Positions 20,678 through 54,329 of a stretch of DNA of 64,000 nt are shown in pieces. Under the pieces are notes generated by a model. It ran no database searches. It had not been told where the DNA came from and saw nothing but the letters and a program-made list of their open reading frames with translations. The translations under genes were made by a program, and so were the position numbers. The stretch spans positions 15,006,501-15,070,500 of the forward strand of contig OY987273.1 in assembly GCA_963920665.1 (NCBI GenBank), given 5' to 3'. This stretch comes from Straminergon stramineum (Eukaryota; Streptophyta; Bryopsida; Hypnales; Calliergonaceae). How positions within the stretch are numbered: the first letter of the stretch is position 1; each line of letters opens with the position of its first letter.

Positions 20678-20696
20678 CAAAACTGTAACTAAGTCT

Positions 20697-23377: not shown

Positions 23378-23760
23378 ATTTGGCTGTAAATTCAGTAGAC
23401 TTCAGAGGTCATTTAGTCATAGTAAAAATACTTTTTAGAAAAAACATCCAACCAATAAAAGTAGGGAAATAAAGTTAAATTTCACCTCCAAAAATCTTTT
23501 TGCGATTTTGAGTTTTAAATCAAAAGTTATGGACAATAATCAGAGAGGATGTTTGAAAATGTCAAAGAAAATGTCAATTCCAACACCTCTCTGAATTTTG
23601 TACATAACTTTTGATTAAAAACTCATAATCGCAAACGGATTTTTGGAGGTGAAATTTAACTTGATTTCCCTACTTTTATTAGTTGAAAGTTTTTTTAAAG
23701 AAGTATTTTTACTATGCCTAAATGGACTCTAAAGTCTGCTGATTTCAAAAAACACCAAAT
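23378..23760. mobile_element. Foldback element of about 380 bp
   Basis: Two arms of about 160 bp pair with each other. The left arm carries CATAGTAAAAATACTTTTTA and AAGTTAAATTTCACCTCCAA; the right arm carries their complements, with scattered mismatches. The ends are ATTTGG and CCAAAT. No clear target duplication is visible, so the superfamily is unassigned. Confidence 0.7.
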
Positions 23761-29249: not shown

Positions 29250-30542
29250 TCAATTCCATGGTATGCTTGGAGGAGCCTTGAGAAGGAACTTGTAGTGCAC
29301 TCGTAGGAGATTACCTTTTGCATTCGCTAGTGGCTTCTTCTCCCATTTGTACATTGGCTTGAATACTTGGTTGTACAGCTTGTTTATTTCTTTAATCTCT
29401 TCAAGCTTGAGCTTACCGACCTCTACATCTATCATGTTTATAGTGCAATGCAGTGTTAGCTTTACAACCTTGGTCTTCTTTTTGCCCTTGCCCTTGCCCA
29501 CGGGATCCATGACCCATTCCGGAACAATATGCCCTAAGAGTTGGCGCATCTACTTCAGCATTGTTTCCATCGGGGCTGAGAAATCAACTAGGATCCTCAC
29601 TACCTTGGATTCGATTAAATGCCCTTCCTTGATTAACCAGTCGTAGACGAGGGAGGCTTCGACAATGATCTTCGATGGTCTATCCACCAAACTGGATAGA
29701 TTCTTGACGAGTTGTAGAGCTTCCTTCTCCCTCTGTTTTGATGTGGCTAGCTCCCCCTCTGCCCAATTCAACCAGTATTGGAGGTTATCCCTCTCTTTTT
29801 CTAGATCCCCGATCCGCTCCTCTTTTCATCTCAACTCCTACGGATTTGGCAATCGCTTCACTACATCTAGGATATCTTCCAGCTTGACCTTAAGCTCCTT
29901 GTTGATTGCCCTTAGGAGTTCTGCTAAGTTGTCATGGTACTCTTGTGCCTGCAACACCCAATTGAATCCGGTCTTAAAGAATTCGGAAACCCCTTCCGTC
30001 TGCTTCTTCGGAAATCGGAACTGGGAGCTTTCCTTGTGATGTTGGATCGGTGGATTTCCTCCTCTTGTCTTTGCGATCTATTAGCTGCTCCTCCTCTTTC
30101 CGCTCTTCTTCTTCAAAATTCGACTGCTCCACCTCCACTTCATCTATAAGGCCATACTATAAGATAGTGAATCCGGTGTTGTATTCTATTATTTCGGCAC
30201 TACTCAAAAGTTCTTCGTGGTGATAGAAGTGGAACAGGTAAGGACTGATAGGACTAATCTTGGTCTTTCCTACATGAGTAGTGAGTTTGGACACCACTAC
30301 TGTTATAATCTTTCCCAATGGACCGGTCTACCCTCTATTACGCCAAAGATGGTGTTGGCCACCGTGACCGTAATCTGGGTAGGCTTTTCTGGATATAAGA
30401 TCGGAATAAGGAATTCTAATACTTGTCTTTGCCTCTCATCTAGATAGTCACTAATGCCATACAACATACCCCTCCTTAACATGGGCTGAATTCTTAACTT
30501 TTACGGTTGTAAACTTATCAGCTCGAGAGGCTAATCCGGATC
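29250..30542 (-). pseudogene. gag-like ORF of LTR element copy A, 3' part (left of the CACTA insertion)
   Basis: Minus-strand frames continue from 50416 across the CACTA insertion: GSGLASRADKFTTVK, VLEFLIPILYPEKPTQITVT, VANTIFGVIEGRPVHW, KTKISPISPYLF, the acidic EEEERKEEEQLIDRK, then MNWAEGELATSKQREKEALQ and ILVDFSAPMETMLK. The blocks align with copies B and C. After VMDP (about 29490) it diverges from B into a lysine-rich stretch ending near 29250. Frameshifts and stops make it non-coding today. The LEFL..ILYP and VHWG blocks resemble ORF1 of Athila-like plant retroelements, which is a pattern match only. The left LTR of this copy is absent, so the element is truncated near 29150-29250. Confidence 0.6.
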
Positions 30543-31700
30543 CACTACAACAAAATGGATGTTTTATGACTACAAAAAATGACCGCAGTGAGTTAAAAAA
30601 TTTGAAAATATGACTAATGCAGGAATTACTGTAGATGACGCCCAACATGATTAGGTCTAGTCATTACCGACTAGTTGCTTTGGACATGAGTCATATTTGT
30701 AGTCATCGTATTTGGGGGGGTATAATTAGCCATATTTTGCCAATGTGGCGTATACGTTGACTATTCTTGGAGACTTGACTTTCTCTTGACCTGCCCGAGC
30801 AAGGAAAAAAAAGTCTACGTGGCATGTGATTGCATGTAGTTGTATTTTTTAATGATATGGAATATGAGTACTTGTAGTCATATTTTGGGATGATGTGGAA
30901 TGTGACTGCAATGAGTCATTTTTTCCTTGAAGTTGTATATCACTATGTTTAGTCATATTTTTTGATGACGTGGAATGTGATTGCAATGAGTCATTTTTTC
31001 CTTGAAGTGGTATATGACTATGTTTAGTCATATTTTTGGATGACATGGAATGTGACTATTATGAGTCATTTTTTTCTTGATGTGGAATACGACTATAAGG
31101 TGTCATGTATTTTGATGATGTTGAATGTGACTATAATGGGTCACTTTTTCTTCAACGTGGCATATGACTCCATGTAGTCATATTTTTTGAAGACATGAAA
31201 TGTGACTATATTGAGTTTTGTTTTTCTTCATGTGGCATATGACTATATGTAGTCATTGTTTAGTAGATGTGGAATATAACTTTTGTGAGTCATCTTTTCA
31301 GCTAGAGTGCAAAACAACTCTTCAAAGTCATATTCCTTGTTCCTATGAATAATGACTGCCATCAGTCATTCTTTTGGTTCTTGTGGAATGTGACTACTAA
31401 GAGTCATATATTTGGAATGATGAGACTATGCCCAATGAAAGTCATTTTAATTTTTTATGACAGAATGCACTTATATTCTTGAAAGTGGAGTTAACACACT
31501 ATCACATTCTTCATGTTCCTATAATCATCATGTTACTTCAAGTAGTCATATTCATGTTTATTTGTATTTTTCACTACAATTTAATCACATGATATTTCTT
31601 ATGACTATACCTAGTCACAGTACTTTGATTTTCTTGTGCCATTTGTGACTACCATGAGTGACATCTACAATATCTTCAATTAGAAATTCCTAATACCTTC
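30543..31700. repeat. Left subterminal TGACTA/TAGTCA array of the CACTA element
   Basis: About 20 copies of TATGACTAnnnnTAGTCATA-type palindromes and half-sites, spaced 30-70 bp apart, with intervening TTGATGTGGAATGTGACT-like sequence. Terminal arrays of this kind bind the TNPA-type protein in En/Spm elements; that function is inferred here. Confidence 0.8.
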
Positions 31701-33356
31701 TCCATGCATTTCAAACATACATGACAATTTCCTATCATACCGTACATATGATTGTGTAGCTCCAAAAATCACCCACATGTTCATGACTTCTAAGATGCAA
31801 TTTAATGGCATGTATTATTCAAATTCAAAACAAGATTGAAATTCACTAACTCAATTCATACATATATGCACACATCTGACCTTATAATGGATTTTGCACT
31901 TCACTACTTCATGTCTTCATTCATTACTTTGAGGGAGTTAAGGCCTCCATAGGCCATTTCGTCACAGACTTCAAAGCATCGCCCAAATGTACTACTAGAG
32001 GGTCATCATTGTTGTTGCCTTCATATAAAAGAACCCCTTCCGATCCTAGAACAATGGAGGTTATCGTGATGGACACGTTGCCCTCTTCAATGAGTTGCCC
32101 GTGAAATGTACCTCCTGCAAGATTCACTACCTCTCCATATGCAAATACATTTTCTTTAGCCTTCTTGTCATCATCCACGTTAAATACTTTCACCTTTGTC
32201 CCTATGGCCAAAGGTAGAGCACTTGCTTTTATTGAGGTGGAAGTACCCTCAACCATCTTCGTTCCACCTTTTGCAACCTACATGTACAATTGGAACATTG
32301 ATATTCAATGAACAAGTAATGAGGATTTGCCTTAAGAAATTCATAGCAATACAAACCATGGATTGAAATACATACCAACTGTAGTGCATTGAATGCTCGA
32401 TTGATCCCCTTGTCCACAAGTGTTACATAGTACTCGATATCAAAAGAGTTGTGGCCTAAAGCTTGAAAAGGTTCTATTATGCTTTTCAGAAAATTATCAT
32501 TCAACGCTATCGGATCCCATGGGGCAATGTTCAACACATTTATGATTGGTAAACAAGTTGTTGCAATAGAATCACAGTCCACTTGAAGAACATGGGTTGG
32601 GCCATGGCATGGATCTCGAATCATACTGAACAAATCATGGAGATCACAAGTGTCTCCACCAATCTCCTTCCCCCACAAAAAACACCACTTCATAGGCGTT
32701 CCAAGAGCAAGGAATTTAGCCACTACTTGGAGAAGGGCCTCTCCAAGTGTAGCCCATATCCCGACATCGAAACGAGCATTCAACATGGTTAAAAATGCCT
32801 CACAATTAGCCGTTTTCTTGATTTTTACCTTGAATTCTTTGTCGCGATGGATTGTGGCTTCTGGCCCCCACTCTCAATTGTCTTGCAATGGACGAATGTC
32901 ACAAAGAAGACCTAAAACATTTCATACAAGGATCTTCGTCCGTGAATCATCCAAACCCCTCACTGGTGGGAACTTCAAGCTCCTCAAAGGCTTCTTCTTC
33001 TTCGAAACACTACCTCCTTTGGTAATCCTATTCGCCCCCCTCCTTCTTATTAGTTTTTCTTTTGTGACTTTTGCATCTAATTGCAAATGTTGTTCTCCAA
33101 ATCTTGCAGATCCACTCTACAAGCACATTAACAATAGACCATTAATTACAACGGAATTTAACCTCTAATTAAGTCAGCAACTATAGAATAACTCAATCTG
33201 TGATGAAATGAAGATGTGCACATGCCTTAGGGTTTTTCTATGCTGGCTAGCTTCAACATATCTTTCTAGAGTATTTGTACATGCATATATATTAGAATAT
33301 GAGTTCTCCTATGTACATATTTTCAAATATGATATCCCATTGTCATACAAAATAAA

Positions 33357-33575
33357 AAATGACTAGTACTAGTTGCATACAGTTAAATGCAACTAAGTCC
33401 AATTATATACAATAACATATGACTACACCCAGTTATATACAATGAAATATGACTAGCCCTAGTTATTTATAATGAAATATGACTAGTCCTAGTAATATAC
33501 AATGAAATATGACTAGTCCTAGTAATTTACAATGAAATATGACTATCCTAAATGACATTCAGAGGAAAATGACTA
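33357..33575. repeat. 31-bp tandem repeat in an intron of the TNPA-like gene
   Basis: About six to seven head-to-tail units of roughly 31 bp, each containing AATGAAATATGACTAGTCCT or a variant. Each unit holds one TGACTA half-site, so the tandem array multiplies the element's presumed binding motif inside the intron before the 33122 exon. Confidence 0.75.
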
Positions 33576-34689
33576 GGTGCACTTGTCTTTTCAACACTTC
33601 CCATGGATAGTCAACATATATGTAAACAAACTATTGAATTACATTGTACAATGGTTTATAAAGCGTTCTTTGAAGTATTTCACTACCACACTACCATTCA
33701 CTTTTTCCTCATTCACAAGAACTCTTAGTTTTGCAAAATCATCCTATATGGATTTTAAGCACAATAATACAAGCACTAAGTACACTTATTCATGGCAAAC
33801 ACACCTTCTGACCAATCTTCCCGTTCTTCATCTTCTCATAGACCTTCCTTACTATCATTGTAGCATGTTTGGATTGAGGAATTTTGTCTACCAACAATTT
33901 CTCCGCCTCCCCCTTCCTCTTCTTGGCACATTCTTCGTCCTTCCTTCCTTCAACTACAATTACTTCTTCTGCATCCATTTGATCTAGTACTACTATTTTT
34001 TCACTATGTTGCACATTCCCCAACTTATTAGTGGCCCCTTCTTCCTATAAAGTCACAACAACATCCAAGGATTGCTTAGTGTGATAATGTGTCAAACTCT
34101 TTCAATGGACTTGTCATTCAAAAGAAATGTAATGGCAAGGACCAAACTAATATAGTAACAACAAATTTGTAAAAAAACATCACTAGGTACAAACCTTTGA
34201 CACTGCTTCCTCCATGATGACTTCTGATGCAATCACTAGATGTAGCTGTGGCAAAACTTCTTCCTGTGCTTGTTCCATGTCACAGGAGTTCAAGATCACC
34301 AATCCCTCCATCATTTCTTCACCAATTGCATCTTCTGCTCCTGTGGTGCCTACTTGAGAACTTGATGGGTGTCTCCCCCCTCCATTTCCCTTGCGTACCT
34401 CATACAAAAGCTCCTTCACTAGTGCACTCATGTTGCTTAATTGCCCCTTCAGAGAGTCTTGAAAAGTATACAATTCATTCCTCACCTCCAATAGGCCTCT
34501 GTCACTTGTCCTTGAATTCCTAACTACCCTTCTCGAGCTTGATAAACAATTGGGCCCAAACTTCTTCGATGTTGCAAGCTCTACTTCCACTTCTAATTGT
34601 ATTGGAGGTCTAGCCAACTATGTAGCCTGCAAAAAAAAGTTGCATCTCGTCATTTTCCTAGACTAAAAATTCTACCTTCACGATTACAC

Positions 34690-36330
34690 ATGACAAGAAC
34701 AAGTCATTGAATTGGTCATACACAAATGCAAGTATTTGATATGACTGCAAGTAGTCACATAAATAAGCACACATGACTGGTAGTAGTCGCACAATGATTT
34801 AGATATGACTACATTTAGTCATATGACTATCTTCCAGTCATCCTTATGACAACAAGTACTCATACACTTGTCCTCATTCTAATAGCATGTTATCATTTCT
34901 TAGTCTACATTATGACTATCAATTGTTGCATCATAAGAAACCTATACTTGATAATGTCACTTGTCTAGTCATACATGTAAACATTTCATGTCCTTGGAAA
35001 CTATCCTCATTCCACTTTCACTAAGAAGTGCCATCTATAATGGCATGAGTAAAAATTTCAAAAATGGATGAAGTGACACTTACAAGATGCAATCTCACTT
35101 CCCCCTCAAAGCACCCACTATGCGTCACATTCTGCACAATTTGTCGTGCAACCTTCATTCATTTGGACTTTGCTATCTTATTCGTCCTCTTGATCAAGTT
35201 CTTGAAGTTCTCCAGATAGTGTTTTTTTACATACATGGGGATGGATCTACCGGATTCTATCAATTTCTTCATGTTCGACCTCCTTGTGCGCATTTTTGAC
35301 CGCATTATTTGAAAGAAGACATCCTCTAGAACATCACCTAGCCCACCACGATATTCAAACTATGAAGCCAATTTCTCCTTGATTGCTATCAAGAGAGTTT
35401 GAAGATGAGTCTTGAAATCATCCACACTCCAATCCAAGTCACGAGAGTATCCACGGAGCTTTGTCAACTAGTTAGACCTATGCACTCCTATAGGAATACC
35501 TGCATGGTCCACTTCAATCCAATCTCTCTGGTCAATTTTTTGTAGATTCCTTTGCAAATGCTTGAGGTTTGACTACCTATGACGATTGGAATTGTTGTCA
35601 AGACTGTTGACCTCTTTCCCCATCGTTTCCCCAAGGTTGCGCATCTTCTCCCGTAATTGCAATGGGTCCGTGCAATTTTTTGCCATGCGCTTCAATATGA
35701 CCACCTCTCGTAACTCCAACTCATCCAAGACATCAGTGCAAGGTTGTACCCTTGGGTCATCTTTGTCCTCCTCTCCATTGAAGTGCATGTCGTTGTCCTC
35801 TTCCAATTCCTCCCCAACTATTGTATCCTTTGTTTCTTGGGAGAGAACATTATCCTCTTCGAAGTCTGTCGTGACCATTACATTCCTTCTTGAACTCATC
35901 TTCCTCTTCCCACTGGGATTTTGGGGCCACGGCCTCAGTTGATTACGTTGATGTTCAATCCTCTAAAAACACCAAGTTGAAAAACACCATATATTAATCA
36001 ATCTTGCAATTCAATCCCTTCTCTATCTACAAGTATTGCAAATGAATAGATTTTCCAACAAATGCATGTCTTATACTAAACCAAGTCACAGATTTCAGTT
36101 TTTGATCAAAACAACTAAAACAGGAACTTCTATGACTAGGCAAAGTCACCAAAGCTCATTTGTGACTACAATTAATCACAATTTACCATTACTACACAAG
36201 GTGGGTCATAAATGAGCATTTGCGACTACAAATAGTCATTAATAATTTTTTGTAACTACATGGAGTCAAAATTGTTCAATTGTGACTATTATTTGGTAGA
36301 AATCATCCTTTATGACTATAAGAAGTGAAG
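34690..36330. repeat. Internal TGACTA/TAGTCA clusters of the CACTA element (34690-34990 and 36070-36330)
   Basis: Introns of the TNPA-like gene carry clusters such as ATATGACTACATTTAGTCAT near 34800 and CTATGACTAGGCAAAGTCAC near 36130. They match the subterminal motif although they lie 4-6 kb from the left end. Confidence 0.65.
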
Positions 36331-37669
36331 AACTTCTAAGCATGAATTCATGAGGATTTATTTTCTTTCTCATCCATGACAATAAATTTGACAATTACAT
36401 CGTCCTCAACAAACATTGTCATTGACATTCATACATCATTTAGAAACCACTTTCATACTTGAAAACCAAGATGTTTGTCCTCTTTGTTTGCTGAGTCCTT
36501 TAGCACTATCACTTGCAACTATATGGGATGTGTACTCACCTTTAGCTTAGGGCAATCGTGTTTAGATGCCTCTTCTTCTACTTCTTCATCACTACCATTT
36601 GTGTCGTTGCCACTATCTATTGGAGATGCTATCCTTTTCTCTACTGCTTGTGTGCACCTTTCAATCGTTGGATTCATAGTGCCAGAGCTTTCTCCTCCTC
36701 CCGATTGTTTATTTGTACGTGGCTTCTGAAGTGGCACACTGCAGCTGCTTTCAAAAAACCCCGCAAGTGCATTAGAAGTCAATTCTAATATTGGAAATAT
36801 AATTGCACGAAATTTAACAATTGTGCAAAACAATTCTACTTGCACATCATCTCGCAAATTAGCAATCTCTCTAGTCATTTTCATCAATGAATTCTCCATA
36901 TTCTAATGACTAGTGTTCTTGCTAAAACAATGTTTGCCAAAGTTTTTGATGGAGAAGCCGCTAGAATTGAAGTGTGATGATGTTGACTGTATTGCATGCA
37001 TGTCCTTTCTCATGCACTGTCATTTCCTATTTTGCATTGCATGAATTGAAAAAAGCATATAACTATTAGCAAAACAAAAAATGGAAAATGAAAATCTATG
37101 GGAAAAAAAATTGGTTGCTTTAAGTCACAATGCCTTCCTATGATTGCATTATGTTAGAAAACAAGTATGTTAAGGTTGTAGAACATGACAACAAGTATTC
37201 CAATTGCTAAAATGTTGACTTCAATTAATAACACATCCACAATGGTACATGACATTAATTCTAACTACAATGCATCTTCCTAATATTTGATGACCAAAAT
37301 TAATGCTAGTATGTGTAGCTTAATTTCATGAATCAAAATCCAAGCACATCATACCATCATACTAATGTTTTAATTGCAAGATTCCATCACATTTTTATTA
37401 CATTCCAAAAAAACTAAGGAAAGAGGAGAAGTCATTGTCTTACCTCATTTGTCCTAGGCCTTTCAATTGTGTTGCAAGCTCCAACAAGCCTAGATCATTG
37501 AATTTCTGTGAGTTCATTTCAATGTTTTGATTTCTTAATCTCTCGTATTCATTGACCTCGGAAGCCATGCTACACCTTTCAAGGCAAGAAATCAAGTGGA
37601 ATAGGTGAGCTTGTAGCACTTGAGGATTATGTAACCACATCAATATGGCACACCACAATCACTTCACTT

Positions 37670-39090
37670 GGCCTAGAAATGTGACACTATTCACATGACT
37701 TCACTTGGTCCTCTGACTCGTACTACTTATTGTTACCAAATCATACTGGGAACATTCTAAGATGTTCAAGAACGGTTCTCATATTACAACAACTTCTCAT
37801 TTTTCACATTCAAATATAAAAGTAGAGAACTAGAAATCAAAAGCCTAGCACTGCAATTTTTGAAGAAATTCCCAGTAGATAACATGGAGATTTGTATGTG
37901 TTCAATTGTATTAATTTGTGGACGAACATATCCAATATAGTTTGCTATTGATGGTATTATCAAATGTGACACATCTAATTTATTTTTCATCATAGTACAT
38001 TGACTTTGGAATTGGAGACCCTTCAAGCTTTGTATAGGGGTTCAAGGAACATGTACAACATAAACTACGTTGGATTCCAAAGAATATCATGTGTTTCAAA
38101 GTTTTCTTCTTCAATTCATTCTTATTAGTTCAATATTGTTTTTCTATATACTATTAATATTACATGAAGAAGTAACAATTTCATAAATTAAATATCGATA
38201 AAGGCTCGAACTCCGCACAAGCATTTAGAATTGCCCCTATTTTAGCTCTGAGATGGATATGAGATGTTTCTTAAATGAACCTCTACAGTCATTTGAATAT
38301 ATTGAGAAAAAAAGTATAATTTATTGCAAGAGCCAATTATTGTCCTTGCTTTCCCCATTTTTCTTTATAACTTCAAGTGAATAATTTATGAAAGACTTAG
38401 TGTCATAAATAGAGGCCTATGACACAAAATTTTGAAAATTCATAACTAATTCAATAATGCTTCAAAAAATATGAAACAACTTGTGTTATATTCTACATCT
38501 GTATCTCTTTCTCTGAAAAATAAACTAAAAATATTCCCATGAAAAAGAAAACCAGTCCTTAGATGGGCGGTTTATGAGCCCACTACCTTATCCAACACAG
38601 ATGAAACACTTTTGTGTTGCATTCTATGAATGAGTCCTCCTTGACAAGTTCTTCAAATTCTCTATTGTAGTTTATATGCTTTAATTGACATATGACTCTA
38701 CGATGTTCAATTTATTTCCAAGACACTTCCAAGTTCTAAGAAGATTTTCCATAGAAGGGACTTTAAACTCAAATGTCTTCCACGGGATTAGTTTCAAAAC
38801 CCTAAAATTTGTATGAGATTGACAAGTTTCAACAATTTGGCATTGCTTCCTTTCATTCACTCTTACTGGAGTGCCACTTCCATTTCCAAAGAACTGTGAT
38901 ATAGAAGAAAAAGAAACAAAATGTCACTCTAAAACTTCTATCAATGTGGAGTGCATTCTCTAGAATACACTACGTGTGCAATTAAAATACACACTAATAT
39001 GCGATGTGCATACACATACCTGTAAGGATGAAGAATGCACCAAATTGCCCAAAGTCTGAATTGTCAACTTCCACTATCTGCAACACTTGA
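37670..39090. other. CACTA interior, no gene recognised
   Basis: AT-rich sequence without a supported frame, upstream of the TNPA-like start at 37568. It may hold that gene's promoter; no clear TATA box or terminator can be assigned. Confidence 0.4.
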
Positions 39091-39097
39091 TCTCTCG

Positions 39098-40060
39098 TCA
39101 GTTTTCGTCATTAGTAGAAAACTTAAACAACTTCAAATAACTACTAAAACATAAGCCAAGACAGTAACATATAAAAGAGAGAAATTGGAAACTTAAGTTT
39201 GTGGAGCACCATTTCAAACATGAATAGCAACTACGTCTTTCAAAACGGAATACAACTGCATTTGTAGCATTAAACACAACTACCAATACTGTAGAAATTA
39301 AAGTAGGAAGAAATAGACTCTTCACCTTACGCACATTGCCTCACAATTAGTCGATGCCGACTAATCCTTAGACAGGGTTGGGAAGTTTGTCATGTCCACA
39401 GAAGCATAAACAAGCACGTATACAAGTTTTGTTGATGTAGTTCTTCGTGATCAAAATAACTGGCTCAATATCTTGAACGCTGAGACGACAAAGAGAATTT
39501 AAAAATTGCCATACTTGCAATTGTGAAAGAGAAAGGACCAACGCAATAAGCGCGACTTCTGCAGCAAAATCTTGTGCGGGTAAGGGTTGTGTGCGCATGT
39601 GCTTATTCTAGGTACCTCCTGTTTGTCAACGCTGCCATGAATTGCGGTTTGTAATAAATTCCAATGGGACCCATTGAACTCCAGAAGTAGTTCTGGGAGT
39701 GGAGTTCACTAAAATTGAACACCCTGTTAATAGAAAGAACTAACACTAAGCTCATATAGTACTTACTAGAAGTTCAAACGAAGAACTAAAAATGGATAAT
39801 CTCCATTAATATTTTGCAGTCTACCACAGTCACGTGACTTTCCACCATTGGCTTCCGGAGTTTCATCAAGCCGCTGTCGATGAACCCGACACGCGAAGTG
39901 CTGACCTCCGTTGGTTTGAATTCTGCCTGCCTGAGAAAATGCGAGATCTCATCATTTATTTTGCGATAGAGTTTTTTTACTTCTTTTTGCTCGTTTTGCA
40001 AAGATTTTCGAAACTGCAAATGCTACAAGGTTGGTTCATTGAACCATCATAGACACATAT
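39098..40060 (-). other. Possible captured gene fragment inside the CACTA element
   Basis: Minus-strand segments look coding but match neither transposase. 40019-39834 reads FRKSLQNEQKEVKKLYRKIN, ISHFLRQAEFKPTEVSTSRV and GFIDSGLMKLRKPMVES, a helical, charged stretch after an ATTTGCAG acceptor. Near 39700-39620 one frame reads NYFWSSMGPIGIYYKPQFMA. 39598-39368 reads EVALIALVLSLSQLQVWQFL and VQDIEPVILITKNYINKT. Codon content is less AT-biased than the surroundings. I do not recognise the parent gene. CACTA elements are known to pick up host exons, so capture is a reasonable inference, but chance frames cannot be excluded. Confidence 0.35.
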
Positions 40061-43000
40061 CACAGATTTTGCATGTTCAGTAGATTAGATGTATTGAGTA
40101 GGTGGCCAAAATTCAAAAACATCTACATGAGATGGAACAAAAATTGGTGAGGAACATTTCCTTTCTATACTATTATGTTGTACCAATGGAAGTACATCTT
40201 CTCAGACAGATAAACTGGAATACGTTGCTGGAGTGTTATAGTGTTTAAGTTTGAGAAAGAGACATTTGCATTTACAAATTTTGTGGTACGTCCACAAGCA
40301 ATGACTTTACAGTGGTCTGATATTTTTTTTTTTCCACACAATTTGTTATAGCTCTAAGATGAAGTGCTTCGAGTGTGAAAAATACAAGGGTAGTTCAAGG
40401 AACAGTTCACAGGTTCATGTCAGAAAGTAACGGAACTAACAATGTTCATATTCTTGTAGCATCAAAGAATTTGCTTAATTGTGGGGAAAATTTTGCAACA
40501 AACGAACTTCATTTGAGTGTCTAGGTACTTACAACTACCTACTTCAAAGTGTCGTTGGTATGTATCATTTTTGACGTGCATATGATGGAAGCTAGAGAGA
40601 ACAATAACTCACAAGAAGTATTAATTACATGTTCAATATAATTGATATTGTTTCCAGGAAGTATTCATCAATATTGCTCGATGATCAATATAGAAATATT
40701 ATTGTCTAATCAAGAAGTTGTAGCAAATATCCATTGGCATTACTAAGCAGTACTAGAATTTGTTGAAGTTCTACATTGAGTAAGTCAATCTAAAACGTAG
40801 AAATTAGTGAACCCTTTCAAATTATAAAGTATTTTTAACTTCAGTTGAGGCAAATATATCATATTGCACTTGATCTAATTAAAATTCAACTAAATGCATT
40901 TTCTTTCAATAACCTATGCAATTTTGTTCAAATGTGAACCCGTAGAGCCTAAGCTAAACACAGAAAGTCCAGTTTGGAAGCTATGGTAGTAGTCCTGTAG
41001 TCAATTGTTGTAATGGAAGTTCCAAAACAAATTTTTGTCGTTCTGTCTATAGGCACAACTTGTTACCTTCATTGAAGCTTCTAAACGAATTTATTTCAAT
41101 TGCTCTATCACTTGGGCACTCAATAGTTAAGCACTCCATGTAAAGGGGAATGACATAGTACAATAGTGATCCCTATGTAGACATTGTTTTAGCTCAAGAA
41201 TCTTGAGAACTAATAGCTTCTTTTATTGAATTCTTCCATTAGTAGAAGCAACTTCTATGATTTTTAAGAAATTCTTTAAGAATTTAGCAAATTAGTTTTG
41301 ATATATTTTTTTTATCCAGGTCAAAGAATAACCCATCACCTTTGATTGCTTAAAGAGATCAAGAAGTATACGAGAGTCTTGTCCTACAATTTAGGCTCTT
41401 ATTGACGAAGAAACTATCTGAGACTATAAATGATTTGTCACTACCTCATCTCTTGTTCAAAAGAGACGCAACAAAACCAAAAATTTGAATTGAAATGAAT
41501 GTTTATGTGCTTTGTAATTCCTTTTGCAAACCAATTCTAGCTTTTTTCTAGTCTTTTTTAATTTTTTTAGATCATGATGATTCTTGGTTGCTGAAGCCTA
41601 TTTATAATAGTTTGTCAATTTCAGAGCACATAGGGCAAGGTCCAGAGAAAACAAAACATAGAGGAGTTGGAAGTTTTGAGCTATTAAGTAGATTAGGTTT
41701 ACACACCATTCAAAACTCCACTTTTTATTTTATATTGCAACCCCTTTAATATGATTATTGGAAGTTTCGAAACTCATATGTTGCCCTAGAAGCTCATTTT
41801 CTACTCTCATTTGTCTGAGGTTGTCAGTTAGCTCGTGATAACTGAACTATGAACTCTATTGGATGCCAAAGCTTTGTATGCATAAATATTCTCTCTGTCT
41901 AGACAGTTAGAGAGGCTATGCATCACGTAAGTATTGTACTTGAAAATGTTGATTGTTGCCCTTGTCCATGTCTAATTTAGATGTCTGAGTAGCTTAAGAC
42001 TAAAGATGCAACCAAAAAATGGGAAGTGAAGTTAATGACATATTTGAATAGGATCATGCACTTAGAGACGAGTTCAAGGAGAGGGTTTTGGTGCTATGTG
42101 TCGTTTATGAAGGAACAATGAGAATAAGAGAGGCAGTACGGAACTATAGAAGACACCAAATAAATTGCTACCCTCTATTTTCTCCAATCTAGCTTCACCA
42201 AACGGATATGTATTTGCAAATTAGAACCATGTAATGTAGACTATTTGTCTACAGTGAAGAATGAGGTTGAGCAACAACTTATGATTTAAAAGTGACACCT
42301 AATCTTTATAATAGAGAGAGGTCATAAAACAATGAAGTCCAACTTGCTTCTCTCGTGGACTCGTGGCACACGTTATGGAACTTTGTTGTTGACTGTTGAG
42401 AGCATTGCATGTGTAGGTCCTCAAGTGCAAAAGGTGGACGAAAAATATTGTGTGAAAACTATCTTGCGTCCTTCAAGAACGTTGTTAGGAGCTTCACTAT
42501 TGTTGTAAGTGAAGCACATTTAAATACTTGGTTTCTAATGTACTTCACATGTTAGCCTATCATGTTCAATATGAGAGATTGAATGAATAGACCTACCATA
42601 TTTTAAAGAACTTCTGGAATGTTGATTGGGAACATCATTTGAGATTTGCAAATGGACTTGAACTTGTAAATGTCTACACTTTTATGTAGAATTGATGACT
42701 ATGTACATTGTCATTTAATACTATATTGAAAATTATTTTTCAATTCATAAAGAAAAACAATTTTACATTGTCAATTGTGGATTTCATCAATACTCTTACA
42801 TTTGCAATTTTGCATACACTGTCACCGATGTGGAATGATATTGAAAAAAGAATTTTCAGAATGAATTGTAAATTCCATTACAAGTAGAACATTAAAAGAT
42901 TGTGCTTACAATTTGTTGGAATGGATTTGAGAACATGTTTCTGTCACCAATTTTTTTTTAAATTTGTCTTCTTCAAATTTAGGACCTAATGTTGCAAACC

Positions 43001-44185
43001 TATTTCCAAAATACTATAAATGCAATTTTGCCTTGCTCCAATAGGTGACAAAGATGCACATATGTAATTTGACAAGAATATCATTTGTAGGAACAACAAA
43101 TCGAACCATTACATGAAGAAAAAACTTGAGAAAGTGTTCATCTCCATAGACTAGGATGACTTCCATCTTTTATAGTAATTATGGGAAATGAATGGGAGTT
43201 CCAATATGATTGTTGTCCAAATTTTGGATGTCGAATAGATTTGGAGGAATGTATTATATTATGATGGTTGTTGAAAAGGGTTTTTTTTGGTTCCCTAGAC
43301 AAAATTGATACAATATATTCTTACTTTTATGGACAATGAATTTGTGGATGAAAATCCATTTGGACTATTACCTAGAGCATCTGATTACCCTTCATGGAAA
43401 GAGTATATAGAGGTCATAGGTCAATTGAATATATACAATTTTCATATTGCTTTACTATTAGGAAGAAGAGAAATTTGAATCATCTGACTATTTGTGACCC
43501 TAGGTTTGATGTATGTTATGTTTTGCATTGAAAGAAAATGTGCTTGTGTTCCCCCTTTCAGAAGCCTATTCACGGATAATAGAAATGTTAATTACTATGT
43601 GAACTACTACAATTTAATATTAGTAGCCTATCCATGTCTCTTGTGATGGACATCTTTTATTAGTACAAAATTTGCCTAGGAAGAAATCACTTAGGCAATC
43701 ACTTACTAGCTGAAGCAATTATACTACAAATATAGTATGATGAAGGCATAGACAATTTGCATGAACCGTAGGTCATTGAATTTGTTGAAGATCAAGAATG
43801 TTTTAATTTATTTATCCGATGCTATTTGATAGTGGGCAAGGCATGGTTTGTCGAGCATATCAATTGCATTTGTGAATTTACCCTAGGCATATGACTTCAT
43901 GTAGTCATGTAACCCAAATGAGATGACTTAGGATAGTCATAAGACTAGCAATAGTCATTTCAATGATAAAAGATGACTACCTTGAGGAAGTCTTTCAGGT
44001 TTTCAAGCATTGGAGTTCGATACACAATGGGTATATCTAGGGGAAGTGAATGATGTATTATAACTTTCAATGTTCATGCACAATAGATTGTAGTGAAGTA
44101 CAAAACATGATTGAAGAGGAGTTGCAAAGTCTATAGCATCTACGGTTATGGCAAGAGGAGGAGATTCAAGTGGACACCATACATC
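40061..44185. other. CACTA interior, mostly uninterpreted
   Basis: About 4 kb of AT-rich DNA between the two divergent genes. One short plus-strand stretch near 43329-43425 reads MDNEFVDENPFGLLPRASDY and could be an early exon of the TNPD-like gene. A further candidate near 42300-42500 reads GHKTMKSNLLLSWTRGTRYG. TGACTA motifs reappear at 43890-43985. Nothing else is supported. Confidence 0.4.
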
Positions 44186-44189
44186 TAAC

Positions 44190-47100
44190 AAAGTATCCAT
44201 ATCCATGCATGGAGTGTGCAGGAGGGAAAGTGCTCGATAGATGCACTATTTAAAAGCACCTTTGAAGCAAAAAGAGGGACCCAGTTTTTATAGCCTCTAT
44301 TCTGGTAAGAAATTGGAAAGAACCACTTCTTGATTATTGTAGTGTTGCGCATATGCATTCAGGTAGCCTCACACTTCATATGGATAATTGGATGATATGT
44401 GTAGGCTTTGTGGAGACCCTATGTAGAAGTTGCATGTATGGCATCGCTACATAAATTTTAAAGAGAGAAACCATCTTCAGCACATGACACATTGAATGGA
44501 GTATGCACAAGAGTTATAGCTTTGGAAAAGTGGAGGTCAAATGTGTTTGATGGAGAATGGTGTCATGGGCCTATCCCAAAGTTCTCACCTTTTTCCTATT
44601 AGAATAGAACGTGGGAAGTGAGGGTATCAAACTTTCCTTTCATGGATTGGAGTCTTTTTGCACTCTAGTCCGCAAGGAAGGAGGAGGAATTACTTCCCTT
44701 TGTAGGAGCGCAACACACCTTCGTAGAATACAAAATTTTGAAGAAGGCATGGCCTCATGTGAAGTCATATGTGATGCAAGTTGAGCTAGACTTATACATA
44801 GACGGAGATGTAGTGAAGGGAAATGTTGCTGGCTTCATAAATAGTTCCATAGGTCTTGAGGAAGTAGGAAACGTGTTGTGGGAGTTCCACATGTTGCCTA
44901 AACCATGGAACACTTTGGAATGGGGATATGTAATGATACTAGCATGAAGGGACATTTTGGTTGGAGAAGAATTGTATGCATGCTACAATGTCAATTGAAG
45001 AAGATGTTGTATGATGACTCCAGGAAGTCACTTTTTTGCATTACTTTATTAGTCATCTTTTGTCAAATATGATGATATGGTGTCATACAAGAAATTTTCA
45101 TCATGGTCATATTTTTTTTATAGAAGTTCAAAGTTTACACTGATGTTCCTTTATAAAACTCCAAACCATAATGTGAAATATGTTCACTAGGTCCTTAGTA
45201 AGGAATGACATATATGAAGTTGAGATTGGTGCCACTTTAGAAGTGGAGCTAGAAATTGTGTAGTACATGTGATGGAAATCATTGGGAGAAGTAGTCTCCA
45301 AATGAAGATGATGAACCACTAATATAGAGTGCCGTATAGTAGTATGTGAAGGCACAAGATATTGACAAGTTTGAATGATGCATGTTACACTTATTGTGTA
45401 CTTGTGTACACTAACAAATCGACCATTGCAGGATGACTATACTCCTCTTGACCTCCGTTCTCGTAGACAAAGAAGAGTTCAACAAGAGGCTCTACATCGA
45501 CAACCCTCTCCAAATCCTGGAGAAGTGGAGGTGCTTTGTATGGTGGCAGAGTGCTTCAATAGATATGACAACATAAATATTAGTGGGCAAGGAATAGAGA
45601 ATATTGAAACTGAACCAATTGAAGATGCACCAATTGAAGATCTTGGCATGGTGGATCTTTCACCAGAGCAAGGACATGGCAATAGTGATGCGGCAATGGA
45701 TGAAGGGCACAATCCAATGGAAAGAGAAGGGTCTTCTACAAACGTAGAGGACCCTACAAGTGTAGATGTGGAGCTCCTCTTGTGAGAAGCTCATACTCCA
45801 CTTTATGCAAGAAGCACTTCCAACCATGTGACCTCCACCCTCATGCTCCTTGTCAGTTGTACTATGTTTGGCGTTTCAAACAACTTTGTTGACGAGTTGT
45901 TGAAGTTGTTGAAGGAGACAATATTACCAAAGGACAACTCACTTCCCAAATCATTTTATAAAGCCAAAAGTATGTTGATGAAGTTGGGGTTGTCCTATAA
46001 TTCTTTACATGCATGTAGAGATGGATGTTGCTTGTTCTGAAAAGAACTGGAGGATGCAATTGAGTGTCCGGTTTGCCACAAATCTCAGTATGTACAAAAC
46101 TCCACCCCCGTAGTAGTGAAAGTATTGAGGCACTTTCCATTGATTCCCCGTTTGAGAAGAATGTATAGTTGCATGCAACTAGCGGAGCTCATGAAGTGGC
46201 ATGTAAGCGGGAAAAACAAAGACAAGGTCATGAGATCCGTAGTGGATTCAAGGGCGTGGGATCATGTTAATAACAAATGGCCATTGTTTGCGAAAGAGGA
46301 GCGCAATGTTAGGCTAGGCCTTGCATTGGATGGTGTGAATCCATTTCAGAACCAAAGTTTGAGCCATTCGACTTGGCCAGTGGTGATGCTGAACTATAAT
46401 CTCCCTCTGTGGTTGGTGACCAAATTTTTTTTATGATGCTCACACTAATCATACCAAGAAAAGAAAGTGTGACAGATAAGAACATTGATGTGTACCTTGC
46501 ACCATTAATTGAAGAGCTACAGATGCTATGGGAAGGGGTTGATTGCTTGGACAGTTTACGCAAAAACTGTGAAGATGAAGCATTCAAGCTTCATGGCATT
46601 CTAATGTGGATAGTGAACGATTTTCTTGCATATGGATTAATTTCTGGCCAAGTGACAAAAGGATATAGGGCATGCCCTATATGTGAACCCAATGTAGTGA
46701 CTCGTCGCTCAAAAGCATTGAAGAAAAATGTTTACCTTGATCATAGACATTACTTACCAATGACCCACCAATGGAGACAACGAAGGGGCACATTTGATGG
46801 TCAAGTGGATTTAAGACCTCCACCAAGAAGAATGAGTGGTCAAAAGCAACTTCATTATGCTGAAGACCAAGAAGAGTGGATGAAGAAGGCTTCTGTAAAT
46901 GAAGTAGAGCAAGCTACAGATCCAGTGCACGAGTATGGAGTGAAGAGGAGGATGTGTCTATATGACTTGCCTTACTGGAAAGTGAGTGTATATGTGGTTT
47001 GGATGTTGTAGGCATCTTAAAGGGTTTGGTGGTCATATACGGAAATGGAAGACACTATATGCACAAGTGTAGTCATGGAAACTAGAAAACAATGACTAGG

Positions 47101-49243
47101 CATAGTCATATTAGTTGCAATATAGTGATTGTGTTCAGTTGTATGCATAGAAAGACTCCATGTAGTCATAATTCCATGTGCATTACTTGATTTCTAACAA
47201 GCCAAAGTGATTGTGCAGGATCTTTTGATAAGACATACATTGGATGTTATGCATTGTAAAAAGAATATTGCTGACAATATTTTGAAAATGTTAAGTGGAG
47301 AGAAGGACACGCTTGAGGTCCGCTTGGACATGAAGGAGGTAGGCATATGTAAACATCTATGGCACGTACCTGGAAAAAAACCTGGCAGCGCCATACTACC
47401 TCGTTCATCATATGCTTTGACCAAAGAGGAGCAAAAAGTCTTTGCAGATGAAATCTGATCATTGCGAACCCCATCCAATATGTGGGTCAATTGAAGAAAC
47501 GTGTACATATGGATGGGAGTATGAAGGGCTTAAAATCCCATGACTTTCATGTCCTCGTGTAACAAGTGTTGACACTATGTGTTCGCACCGTGCTAGCGAA
47601 GGAGGTGCGCACTGCAATAATCATGTTGAGTCTTGTATTTAGGAGGATATGTGCTAAGACCATTGATCCCAATGGTATAGTAGAGCTAAGGTTGGACATG
47701 GCAATAGCATTGTGCATGCTAGAAAAAGAATTTCCACCATCATTTTTTGACATTATGAGCCATTTAGTTGTCCACCTCGTAGAAGAGGTAGAAATTTGTG
47801 GACCTATGCACACACGTTGGATGTATCCAATTGAAAGGTACTTGAAAACACTTATAGGATATGTTCGCAATCGTGCTCGATTGGAGGAGAGCATGGCTAA
47901 AGGCTACACTATAGTTGAAGCACTGGGATTTTGCAGTAAGTATATGCAAGAATACATAGTGACCACTCGAAGAGTGTGGGATGACAAAGAAGATCCTTCA
48001 GTGTATGATGAGATTTTAGAAGGTAGCGGACGCCAAAGGCATCTCTCAGTCGAGCTTAGACAATGGATCCATGAGTTCGTGGTGAACAACACAACACCGT
48101 TGGAGGATTGGAGGAGGTAAGGTCCTTTGATAAAGCAGAGTATTGTTTGTAGTACCTCGCCACCACAACAACCTAAGCCATATTGGATGAGTGTTGGTGT
48201 ATCCAATGATGATTGCATTTAGTAATGTCTTTGCATTCATGATTGTAATTGGTAGTGAAATTCCTTCTATGACTGCACCTATTGATATAGTTGCATGGAT
48301 GAGAGAAGGTAGTCATGGAGTTGCATCTTGGAAGGAACAAATGCATTCAAGTATTGTATGATGTAGGAGACATGAGGACGACATGTCCTCTTGAGAATGA
48401 GAGCGTGAACAATATAGACCTAAAAAACGAAAGAGTCGAATAGTGTATCCAACAAAGATGTGCTAGGAAGAGTTTCACGTTTGGTTTCCTGAAGCAGTGG
48501 TACATGCCATAGAAGTTGGGACTGAAGAAGTGGACGAAGACGTGAAGGCTCTAATGTTACCTCCATTAGATAGAGCCAAGTCATATCGTTCCATGTATGC
48601 CTTTGGAAACCACTTTCGTGTTCGAAGCTCTGAAAAACAATTGACGACAATGGACTCTAGAGTAGCTGCAACCTTTCAACAATTTTGTCGAGTAGGTGTC
48701 AAGGATAGGAACTTGAAGGCCTCGGAGTTGGAGTATGTAGGATGGGTGGAGGAAATCCTATTTGTAGACTAAGGGCACTTTGAGGTAGTGGTGCTCTATT
48801 GCAATTGGGTGGTTGCAAATATGAAGGGTGATGGGGCCACTATGAAGCGCGATGAATATGGATTCACTAGCATCAATTTTGACAGATTGATTCCATATTC
48901 ATCACAATTGTTTGCCTTCCATCTCCATGTTGAACAAGTCTTTTTTGCATCCGACAAGGCCAAGCATGGATGGGAAGTTGTATTCCCCAAAGAACCTAGG
49001 GGTGTTCGATCATTCTCCAAACAAGAAGCATCATTTGAAGTAGAGTGCGTATCCCTAGGTAAGACAATTGATTTTCATGGACTAGAAGCCACGGGCTTGC
49101 ATGGAGACCTCATACTGAAGGCAACCATCTTATATGATGATGTGGAAGTTGAGCCCAATGTGGTTGCAAATGCATTGCAACGTCTAAGACAAGAAGACAT
49201 AGAAGCAAATGACAGACAATACTCTAATGTAGATTATGATTGA
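44190..49243 (+). pseudogene. TNPD-like CACTA transposase with TNP2, DUF4218 and DUF4216 regions, decayed
   Basis: Order on the plus strand: a zinc-knuckle-like exon at 44190-44302 (YPYPCMECAGGKVLDR then KHL; donor CTG/GTAAGA); a SET-like exon about 44400-45000 (listed separately); an acidic exon from the acceptor at 45431 (DDYTPLDLRSRRQRRVQQEA); TNP2 proper from 45786 (LPKDNSLPKSFYKAKSMLMK, PLIPRLRRMYSCMQLAELMK, LALDGVNPFQNQSLSHSTWP, DKNIDVYLAPLIEELQMLW), with a frameshift near 46430. A donor follows LPYWK at 46981 and an acceptor lies at 47218 before RHTLDVMHCKKNIADNIL. The DUF4218 block (MCSHLVVHLVEE-like sequence, YPIERYLKTLIGYVRNRA) runs to 48116, donor GTAAGG. The final exon is 48380-49243 with the DUF4216 block (YCNWVVANMKG, QVFFASDKAKHGWEVVFPKE), crossing one TAA. 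Several stops and two or more frameshifts make it inactive. Confidence 0.85.
44400..45000 (+). pseudogene. SET-like domain exon inside the TNPD-like gene
   Basis: One frame reads, with two stops, VRVSNFPFMDWSLFAL, a TAG at 44666, SARKEEELLPFVGAQHTFVE, SYVMQVELDLYIDGDVVKGN, VAGFINSSIGLEEVGNVLWE, WNTLEWGYVMILA, a TGA at 44945, then RDILVGEELYACYNVN. This follows the SET fold in order: the first strand with a GxG-like turn (here DWS), a GEEL-type turn (EEELLPFVG), the YIDG strand, the RFINHSC-like block as GFINSS followed by GNV, and the C-terminal GEELxxxY block. The catalytic Asn-His pair is altered (NSS rather than NHS), as in PR/SET-type domains, so methyltransferase activity is doubtful even before decay. 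It lies between the zinc-knuckle-like exon and the acidic exon of the transposase gene, all on the same strand. Confidence 0.7.
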
Positions 49244-49945
49244 GTCCCCAATCATGGCTACAAGTATTGTAAATGAAATTGTCTTTCATATTTGAATTTG
49301 AATTTTGTATATAGCATTCTCTTCAATACATCACACAAAAATACACCCTGTAACTATGTTGGTCTTTTTAGGAAAAGTTCAATAAAATGGATAGCATTCA
49401 TCATACGACACATTAGGCACAAACGCTACCACTGCACTCTTTTGCAAGATTGACCATCTCTTCTTGACCTAATATATATGTGAAAGATTAAACCCTTTGT
49501 GTAATGAAAACAAAGTCTATGTTTGAAACACTACTTTGGAGGACTGTCTATATAACCAGAAGTGTATGTGATCCTCAAAACCAAAGCACCACAAGAAATC
49601 AAAATACATTTCACATTCATTTGGAGACCCTTCACTAATCCCTTCTTACAAGATGATCCCAATATGAACCCATGTATTGTCTCCTACCATTAATTGATTT
49701 TTCCTTTTTAATTCACTTGTTAACCCTATGAGTAATGTAAGTTGATGAATTGAAATATGAATATGTGACACCTGAATTTATTGGACACCAATTTTATTAT
49801 AGGCAAAACATTCAATAGAAAAAAATCCTTCTTTTGATAGAAAGAAAAAAAAGTGATGCATACACCCCAAGGGATGGTCCCTATGGCTAGAATACAAGAA
49901 GGCCATTATAGATTTCCCACCTTTTCCATGGTATGTCCCCAAAGA
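49244..49945. other. 3' flank of the TNPD-like gene, no gene
   Basis: AT-rich DNA between the transposase stop and the right subterminal array. Probable 3' untranslated region; no clear poly(A) signal can be assigned. Confidence 0.4.
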
Positions 49946-49949
49946 AAAG

Positions 49950-50415
49950 AGAGAACTAAAAAAATGTGACTACAAAATATGACTAAAGTATAAATATGAC
50001 TACAAAATTTGACTGAAGCATAAATATGACTAAAAAATATGACTGAAGCATAAATATGACTATAGAATATGATTGAAGCAAAAATATGACTAGGACCTCT
50101 CCATGCATGTTTCCCACCCAAATTAACCTTGGGCTGCCCTAAGAGAAAAAAAATCAGAACCATGTAGATATGACTGCAAAATATGACTAGGCGTTCTCCA
50201 AACATGTTCCCTATCGTTCCCTATGAAGTATTTCAATGTTCCCAATAGACATATACTATATGTCCTCAAAATACAATGCAAGAACATGACTGGCAGTCAT
50301 ATTTGTAGTCATATTTTTTTTCAAGGTCTTGGGCTCCAAGAATATGACTATGAGCAATTGCTAATCATCTCTAATCATATTTTCATAGTCATAAAGCACT
50401 CGTTTTCTTGTAGTG
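49950..50415. repeat. Right subterminal TGACTA array of the CACTA element
   Basis: From 49957 to 50095 a unit of about 36 bp (AAATATGACTACAAAAT, then TGACTGAAGCAT) is repeated roughly four times. Palindromic CATGACTGGCAGTCATATTT lies near 50286 and further half-sites run up to the terminus. It mirrors the left array at 30543-31700. Confidence 0.8.
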
Positions 50416-50689
50416 ATCCTTTCATCGAGAATCCATAGACATTCGCCCAAACCTCATCCGTCCAAGTTCCGGGTCAATTCTCAATGTCAACTTGAATTGA
50501 TTCGAAACTCCTACAATGAGCTCCTGAATCACCTGCTCATTTCTCAGGGTCCATGGCCTGAGTAATAGGCCCACACCCAATGCTGCTCAAGTCATCTTCT
50601 ATTTGTGACTGGTCACTCTGCCTTCCCAGCATGGTAGGACAGACCATCCGAGTAGTGGCTAAAAGTTTATGACTACCTCCTTCCGCCAT
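50416..50689 (-). pseudogene. gag-like ORF of LTR element copy A, N-terminal part (right of the CACTA insertion)
   Basis: The minus-strand ATG at 50689 opens MAEGGSHKLLATTRMVCPTM, matching the starts of copies B and C, and reads on to TWTDEVWANVYGFSMKGS at the CACTA insertion. The start lies about 30 bp after the LTR, so the leader is very short. One stop (EK*AGD) and frame changes are present. The reading continues at 30542. Confidence 0.65.
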
Positions 50690-50719
50690 TATGAACCGGA
50701 ACTAATAGTAGATCCAAAA

Positions 50720-51125
50720 TGCACAGTCTTGTCCTCCCTTTCCTCTTACAATTGATAACTCACCACTCTTTTACCCTACTATATGAGTGCAAGCATCTGC
50801 GGAAGAAAGAAGGAGGAGAAATGGAAGTGGAGGGGTTTAAATATTGGTCAACCTATTGACTGTTCTCGATCGAAGATTGTTTGCCGTAACAGCTCATTAG
50901 ATTTCTAGGCCGGAACTCTAAGGTGTAGGCTGTCTTTTATCGAGTTTCCGGACCTGTCCTGGACCTTAATTACAGAATACCTGGATCATCTTCTCAGCCT
51001 AAGTGTAATGTTTAAGCTAAGCAAATTCTTATTCCAGCTGCTTAGTTAAAATTTTGAAAAATTCCATACTATAATAGTTCTATTTGATACAAACTTAGTG
51101 GATTCCAAGTTTCTGTCTTGCAACA
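50720..51125 (-). mobile_element. LTR between gag-only elements A and B
   Basis: About 405 bp. On the minus strand it begins TGTTGCAAGACAGAAACTTG at 51125, directly after a purine tract (AAGGAGGG) that fits the polypurine primer site of element B. It ends shortly before the ATG of copy A, where TGGATCTACTATTAG could be a primer-binding site. It therefore serves as the 3' LTR of B and the 5' LTR of A. It aligns with 53935-54329 and 6790-6956. Both ends are estimates to within about 20 bp. Confidence 0.6.
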
Positions 51126-53901: not shown

Positions 53902-53934
53902 CAAAACCCGTAACTAAGTAATGTCCGGTGTGGA

Positions 53935-54329
53935 CAGCATTGTCCTCACTTCCTTCTTCTTGAAACAATCGCTAACTCACCACTCTTTCACTCAACTATA
54001 CAAGCGCAAACATCAATGGAAGAAAGAGGAAGGAGAAATGGAGGTGAAGGGATTCAAGTACCCATCATTCTACTAACCATTTTCCATAACAATTCCTTAG
54101 ATTTCTAGACTAGAACTCTAGGATATAGGCTGTCCTTGTCCGTATTTCCAGATTCTGGATTAGTCTTGGATCTGGTTACGGAATACTAGATTTGTCTCGA
54201 GCCTAAGTATAATATTTAAGCTAAGCAGATTCTTATTTCCTGTGCCTAACCAAAAAAATTGAAAATGTAACTCTATCTTACTTCTATTTTATACTAACTC
54301 TACTTGTTCCAAGTTTCCATCCCGTGACA
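53935..54329 (-). mobile_element. 5' LTR of gag-only element B
   Basis: On the minus strand it begins TGTCACGGGATGGAAACTTG at 54329, carries a TATA-like TATAAAATAG at 54284-54293, and ends near 53935, about 35 bp before the gag-like ATG at 53901. It aligns with the LTR at 50720-51125 with many substitutions, so the element is old. TGTCAC is a common plant LTR start. The inner end is approximate. Confidence 0.65.
54284..54293 (-). promoter_or_regulatory. TATA-like box in the LTR of element B
   Basis: The sequence TATAAAATAG on the minus strand is conserved in the copy D fragment (TAAAATAG near 6913) and degenerate in the shared LTR (ATTTGATAC). It lies about 36-46 bp inside the LTR start, so transcription would begin early in the LTR. 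The promoter role is inferred. Confidence 0.35.

Follow-up and report, generated by a model that had tools for sequence, protein, structure and literature searches.

The window analysed here is a 64,000-nucleotide stretch of the Straminergon stramineum genome (contig OY987273.1, positions 15,006,501 to 15,070,500 of the forward strand), which contains a CACTA transposon with a SET-domain gene inside its transposase gene, TNPD. The SET gene lies in sense orientation in a TNPD intron, between the exon coding for a zinc module and the exon coding for TNP2, and SET and TNPD are separate reading frames. With moderate confidence we propose that a small SET-domain protein was encoded by an accessory gene of the element, and that its function was probably anti-silencing. 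The SET product is a putative histone-lysine methyltransferase, with the Set1/MLL and ASH1/NSD/SETD2 enzymes as its closest neighbours in sequence. Such a methyltransferase would have kept the chromatin of the element unsilenced and thereby TNPD expressible.

The SET reading frame

A first-pass annotation of the window had described ordered SET motifs in a single frame, and these are indeed present on the forward strand: LLPFVG (44690-44707), YIDGDVVKGN (44795-44824), GFINSS (44831-44848) and GEELYACY (44963-44986). The SET segment had been placed at 44400-45000. This place is right, whereas the limits of the coding stretch had to be corrected; it starts at 44405, a possible exon start, or at the ATG at 44438 and runs through the stop at 44996-44998 (+ strand). 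Four in-frame stops interrupt the frame (TAA 44459, TAG 44600, TAG 44666 and TGA 44945) ahead of the final TGA. The single-frame translation aligns to related proteins from end to end, thus no frameshift is seen.

A search of the stop-masked frame with the Pfam SET hidden Markov model (PF00856), proposed earlier as a check, gave 26.5 bits (E 8.9e-6), above the cut-off of 22.4, and covered profile positions 2-105 of 105. When restricted to the stop-free piece at 44669-44944, the search had no Pfam SET match at E <= 1, therefore the match depends on the part past the stop at 44945. A protein search with the SET frame, which admits only proteins of 0.55-1.75 times the query length, returned 39 relatives among 52 candidates at E <= 1e-3; the best has an E-value of 2.8e-84 and is 74% identical over the whole query. 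Pfam SET is matched by 36 of the 39 at E <= 0.1. Judged by these alignments the SET domain is genuine, the match being far beyond chance. The SET fold of SET-domain methyltransferases is present.

All SET relatives are short (105-212 aa, the full-length ones about 180-212 residues). A second search, among 803 candidates of 495-1575 aa, found none at E <= 1e-3 that contains the SET region; spliced products may be missing from this set. In NCBIfam, the relatives P0001 and P0003 match a single model, that of a bacterial effector, and only in its SET part (21-27 bits, cut-off 550), which reflects a shared domain and not membership. Against PDB sequences the window SET alone had one chance-level match (E 0.35); the 39-row SET profile did better. 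DNA of the relatives was sought in viral contigs (seven pattern matches) and in bacterial and archaeal genome contigs (98 pattern matches), and none of these matches was confirmed.

Two features of SET enzymes are found in the family. The GxG motif, which belongs to the cofactor site of SET domains, reads GWG (G in 33, W in 36 and G in 35 of 39 rows). The C-terminal active-site tyrosine, a feature of SET methyltransferases, corresponds to Y175 of the query and is conserved in 90% or more of a 24-row alignment.

In a different frame, a stretch at 44394-44493 (+, frame of 44001) that overlaps the beginning of the SET segment reads MCRLCGDPM*KLHVWH, with one stop inside (asterisk). It has a C-x2-C...H-x2-H look, which may be due to chance.

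TNPD is complete without the SET frame

TNPD exon 1 (44107..44304, +) encodes the zinc module (KYPYPCMECAGGK...KHL...RDPVFIASIL); it contains three in-frame stops, and its start ATG is a prediction. A zinc-module profile built from 15 TNP2 relatives matched exon 1 in three overlapping tiles, the best with an E-value of 2e-7, and had no other match at E <= 1 across the window's six stop-masked frames, in agreement with the zinc-knuckle-like exon described before. The profile match stops at SIL, exactly at the donor, where CTG is followed by GTAAGA (44305, phase 0). With blastp, exon 1 found P0131 (1e-5) and P0105 (2e-5) within the fetched relatives, and it reached 12.4 bits with Pfam Transpos_assoc (PF13963, cut-off 27.7). 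A U-box match to exon 1 (E 0.001, 19.5 bits, cut-off 21.4) was set aside, and the zinc-module profile was preferred.

The intron housing the SET frame is 1,127 bp long (44305..45431, +). Its donor at 44305 (9.2 bits) and the acceptor at 45432 (9.4 bits) are joined in phase 0 when the SET segment is skipped; splice-site scores are taken from a rough table throughout. A branch-like CTAAC can be read directly in the intron. The body of TNPD, the TNP2 exon or exons (45432..46986, +; predicted end), begins after CAG and contains two in-frame stops and one frameshift. PF02992 matches at 46041-46436 (83.4 bits) and at 46400-47011 (132.2 bits) identify a transposase of the TNP2 type. Thus, the SET domain does lie in a CACTA element, with the zinc exon on one side and the TNP2 exons on the other, as had been suggested.

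The nine nearest TNP2 relatives are 74-78% identical to the window, and they appear to have the intron as well. In the relatives P0040-P0043 and P0048 a Q stands directly before DEYSP, which is what read-through of an intron with a presumed CAG at its end would give. The zinc module and TNP2 are found in one open frame in at least 15 of the best 120 of 473 TNP2 relatives by a strict motif, and blastp adds more (for instance P0131 and P0151). Identity to the window is 42-47% for these one-frame relatives, and the database gives TNP2 as their sole domain, with no SET domain. The transposase is therefore whole without SET, and the fusion of SET to a TNPD-type protein claimed in the first-pass annotation is not supported.

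Start of the SET protein

Two forms of the accessory gene can be envisaged. The SET gene might be nested in the TNPD intron and use its own ATG at 44438, expressed from a promoter of its own or through retention of the intron and without the zinc module, which we regard as a serious possibility. Alternatively, if the in-phase acceptor at 44405 (7.4 bits) is used, SET would be an alternative last exon joined to the zinc exon, and the DNA-binding end of the transposase would carry the enzyme to the element's own ends. One zinc exon might then, by alternative splicing, provide both TNPD and a zinc-SET histone methyltransferase addressed to the ends of the element, and the transposon would write its own chromatin mark; this appears possible, if doubtful. 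Another in-phase acceptor, at 44363 (7.6 bits), was discarded, since it is followed by two in-frame stops ahead of 44405.

Four relatives (P0001, P0003, P0004 and P0025) have their start methionine at the column of the window's ATG, which favours the independent start over the zinc-SET splice, and P0009, P0011, P0012 and P0014 begin one to three residues after this column. On the other side, homology extends upstream of the ATG to the acceptor: the 11 residues encoded from 44405 to the ATG (ALWRPYVEVAC) align in a fixed register with three relatives, which read VLQRHHIQALA, VMQRPHIQVLA and VLQRPHILALA. An equally high score was reached by 51 of 200,000 shuffles and by 22 of 127,936 six-frame stretches. 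In addition, P0013 begins at the position of 44405 with V and not with M. The upstream homology together with the fitting phase of exon 1 favours a SET exon spliced from upstream. The test of the 11 residues was made post hoc, after the match had been noticed, and its three targets are close kin.

Accessory gene or passive capture

Besides the start methionines and the post hoc nature of the 11-residue test, several observations weigh against an accessory methyltransferase gene. The exon structures and splicing of zinc-SET and TNPD are predictions from the DNA. The GxG motif of the window copy reads DWS. The NHS motif is replaced by NSS, as noted before, and this proved to be a trait of the whole family (N in 37, S in 37 and S in 35 of the 38 rows that carry a residue at this place), in which the histidine occurs in none of the 38. 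This histidine is usual in active SET enzymes; since PRDM proteins lack it too, its loss lowers the chance of activity and does not exclude it. Three of five structure models are poor, with a mean predicted local distance difference test score (pLDDT) of 45.6-47.3. The place of SET in the TNPD intron is known from the window copy, and that it holds as a rule is presumed.

Linkage between SET and TNP2 in the relatives was assessed by equal contig size for the 39 SET and the best 120 of 473 TNP2 matches. One pair from the same source, SET P0023 and TNP2 P0066 with a longest contig of 2846 bp each (both ena), is little better than chance and counts against our reading as well: at least one same-source match also arises in 45 of 400 shifted controls, which average 0.36 matches of any source. 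Both this pair and the other equal-size pair (3705 bp, ena and lgn) were set aside as linkage evidence.

The main rival is passive capture, in which a host SET gene or fragment was picked up in the manner of Pack-CACTA or Tgm-Express transduplication (Tgm-Express1 is reportedly a CACTA element of soybean) and had no role in transposition; we consider this rather unlikely. The available text of two reports describes soybean and Arabidopsis CACTA elements that capture pieces of host genes (PMC4158355, PMC13317346), and the link between SET and TNP2 in the relatives is a presumed one. The short length of the relatives speaks against capture from a host gene, as none was found at E <= 1e-3 among the longer proteins (495-1575 aa), and so do the sense orientation, the in-phase acceptor and the whole coding frame. 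SET has moreover decayed to a similar degree as TNP2. Of 59 columns with 90% conservation among 17 SET relatives (17 of the 39 rows were used), the window SET has retained 53, the second G of GxG being one of the lost columns, and of 170 such columns among 26 TNP2 relatives (26 of the best 120 rows) the window TNP2 has retained 158. Similar decay is expected if SET and TNP2 were both useful until the copy died. A recent capture would also retain conserved residues and look similar, and passive capture therefore stays the main rival of the accessory gene.

A serial fusion of zinc module, SET and TNP2 in one protein is very improbable. All parts lie on one strand and in order, exon 1 and the TNP2 exon are both in phase 0, and a weak in-phase GT (44990, 2.0 bits) stands directly before the final SET stop. 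The best in-phase GT inside the SET segment, however, has 4.7 bits compared to 9.2 bits for the exon 1 donor. The place of the window's stop is also the end of 11 of 23 aligned relatives (after VN or LN), and the other 12 end 1-13 residues later, where each end could be a stop or a contig end. The shared stop place, the weak GT and the lack of a longer homologue thus argue against this fusion. Likewise, the stop, the phases and the relatives with contiguous zinc module and TNP2 speak against a product that joins SET to TNP2.

Within the window, to which this check was confined, no nested host SET gene was seen, as no inverted repeat lies at the SET boundaries. That the SET segment is another mobile element or a retrocopy inserted in the CACTA intron is very improbable. 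In its favour, the segment is intronless, and of 16 inverted-repeat pairs at 44150-45500 two enclose the entire intron from within the exons (17 nt, 82%; 10 nt, 90%) and one (18 nt, 78%) spans the SET stop with one arm and has its second arm within the SET frame. Against it, none of the 16 is located at both ends of the SET segment, all of them are short (10-28 nt) and imperfect, and no poly-A tract was seen by eye after the stop.

Comparison to known transposons

Chromatin- or DNA-modifying enzymes borne by transposons are known from few cases, SET in oomycete elements and TET/JBP in fungal elements. According to Kojima and Jurka (2014), as cited in PMC12730594, a gene for a SET histone methyltransferase is part of the HarbingerS and MuDR families of Phytophthora. 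Like the element in the window they are, by that description, DNA transposons with a SET gene beside the transposase; they differ in transposase superfamily and host, and the likeness is one of description, not of compared SET sequences. The transposase here is TNP2 of a CACTA element and not a Harbinger transposase. The same source reports that DNA transposons of fungi, among them EnSpm, contain genes for TET/JBP dioxygenases (PMC12730594). There, too, an epigenetic enzyme is carried by EnSpm-type and other elements, although in fungi and with a DNA-modification enzyme instead of a SET protein.

An anti-silencing action, as proposed here for the SET protein, would resemble that of VANC, which to our knowledge is not a SET protein. 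VANC and KIU are described in the accessible text as anti-silencing proteins of Arabidopsis VANDAL elements, which are Mutator-like elements (MULE; PMC10398659, PMC13317346). Both are accessory proteins borne by the element; they counter silencing there, whereas such an action of the window SET protein is a proposal.

Among CACTA elements, the tnpD transcript of maize En/Spm contains a large frame from the intron-1 region and is itself an alternatively spliced product, according to the available text of PMC2613891. As far as this description goes, a CACTA intron houses the reading frame of another product on the same strand there as well; in the window the intron frame encodes a SET protein and the intron belongs to TNPD. 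The soybean CACTA elements Tgmt* (20.5 kb) and Tgm-Express1, treated in the same source and, as cited, in PMC1947982, are alike in being CACTA elements, with gene fragments carried by such elements, and Tgmt* also in size; they differ in that the word "methyltransferase" is absent from the available text of PMC2613891. Neither "SET domain" nor "methyltransferase" occurs in the text of PMC13317346. Giant EnSpm elements with several accessory genes have been reported in red algae, as seen from part of PMC12477816. Among the papers listed in our literature search, no title or beginning of an abstract names a SET gene in a CACTA element, which is weak evidence because of an open-access bias and because Repbase Reports were reached via citations only.

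A SET gene built into a CACTA transposase gene would add a large plant transposon superfamily to the known cases. The alternative-exon arrangement, if true, would unite the binding of DNA and the modification of histones in a single protein encoded by the element. It offers a way to test directly whether DNA transposons avoid silencing by placing active marks on themselves, and the 39 related short proteins are at hand as a test family.

Structure of the CACTA element and neighbouring sequences

The complete element is 19,873 bp long (30543..50415, +), with the ends CACTACAACAAAA... and ...TTTTCTTGTAGTG. Its terminal inverted repeats, which are those of the CACTA superfamily, were read directly: CACTACAACAAAA... 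from 30543 and CACTACAAGAAAA as the reverse complement from 50415. The boundary was also set independently by a repeat that is interrupted at 30543/50415 and uninterrupted at 19729-20694 and 52828-54317. The 3-bp target-site duplication ATC is present on the left (30540..30542, flank ...CCGGATC) and on the right (50416..50418, flank ATCCTTTC...), and the empty sites are CCGGATCCTTTC in the sister copy near 20370 and AGATCCTTTT in the sister copy near 53590. Subterminal repeats as in other CACTA elements occur at both ends: the left array (30817..31299) of ATGACTA/TAGTCAT units was detected with Tandem Repeats Finder, the right array (49962..50092) of a 30-bp unit with ATGACTA with the same program (90% matches) and with a second repeat scan. 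The TNPD gene continues with a DUF4218 part (47563..48120, +; PF13960, 117.9 bits) and a DUF4216 part (48773..49243, +; PF13952, 31.3 bits, cut-off 30.6). The terminal repeats, the duplication, the subterminal arrays and the TNP2, DUF4218 and DUF4216 domains, which all score above their Pfam cut-offs, thus place the SET frame inside a structurally complete CACTA element. The window copy is a dead copy of an autonomous-type element.

TAGTCAT/ATGACTA motifs similar to those of the subterminal arrays are also found at 47070-47170, within the TNPD gene, and at 43902-43980, upstream of exon 1. The repeat at the boundaries is present in three diverged copies that are 68-74% alike (19729-20694; 29734-30543 with 50415-51113; 52828-54317), the second being the one interrupted by the CACTA element. 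Long imperfect palindromes, 77-90% self-complementary and similar to foldback elements or miniature inverted-repeat transposable elements (MITE), lie at 283-432, 654-825, 2633-2837, 23389-23745 and 52497-52824.

On the minus strand inside the CACTA element, a frame of 214 aa (32232-32873) has a weak match to a phosphatase of the NIF type (C-terminal domain, CTD; 15.3 bits, cut-off 21.8, E 0.017), and a PDB sequence search with this frame gave no match at E <= 10. If the NIF match is real, the element would have a second domain of a gene-regulation type, encoded on the opposite strand.
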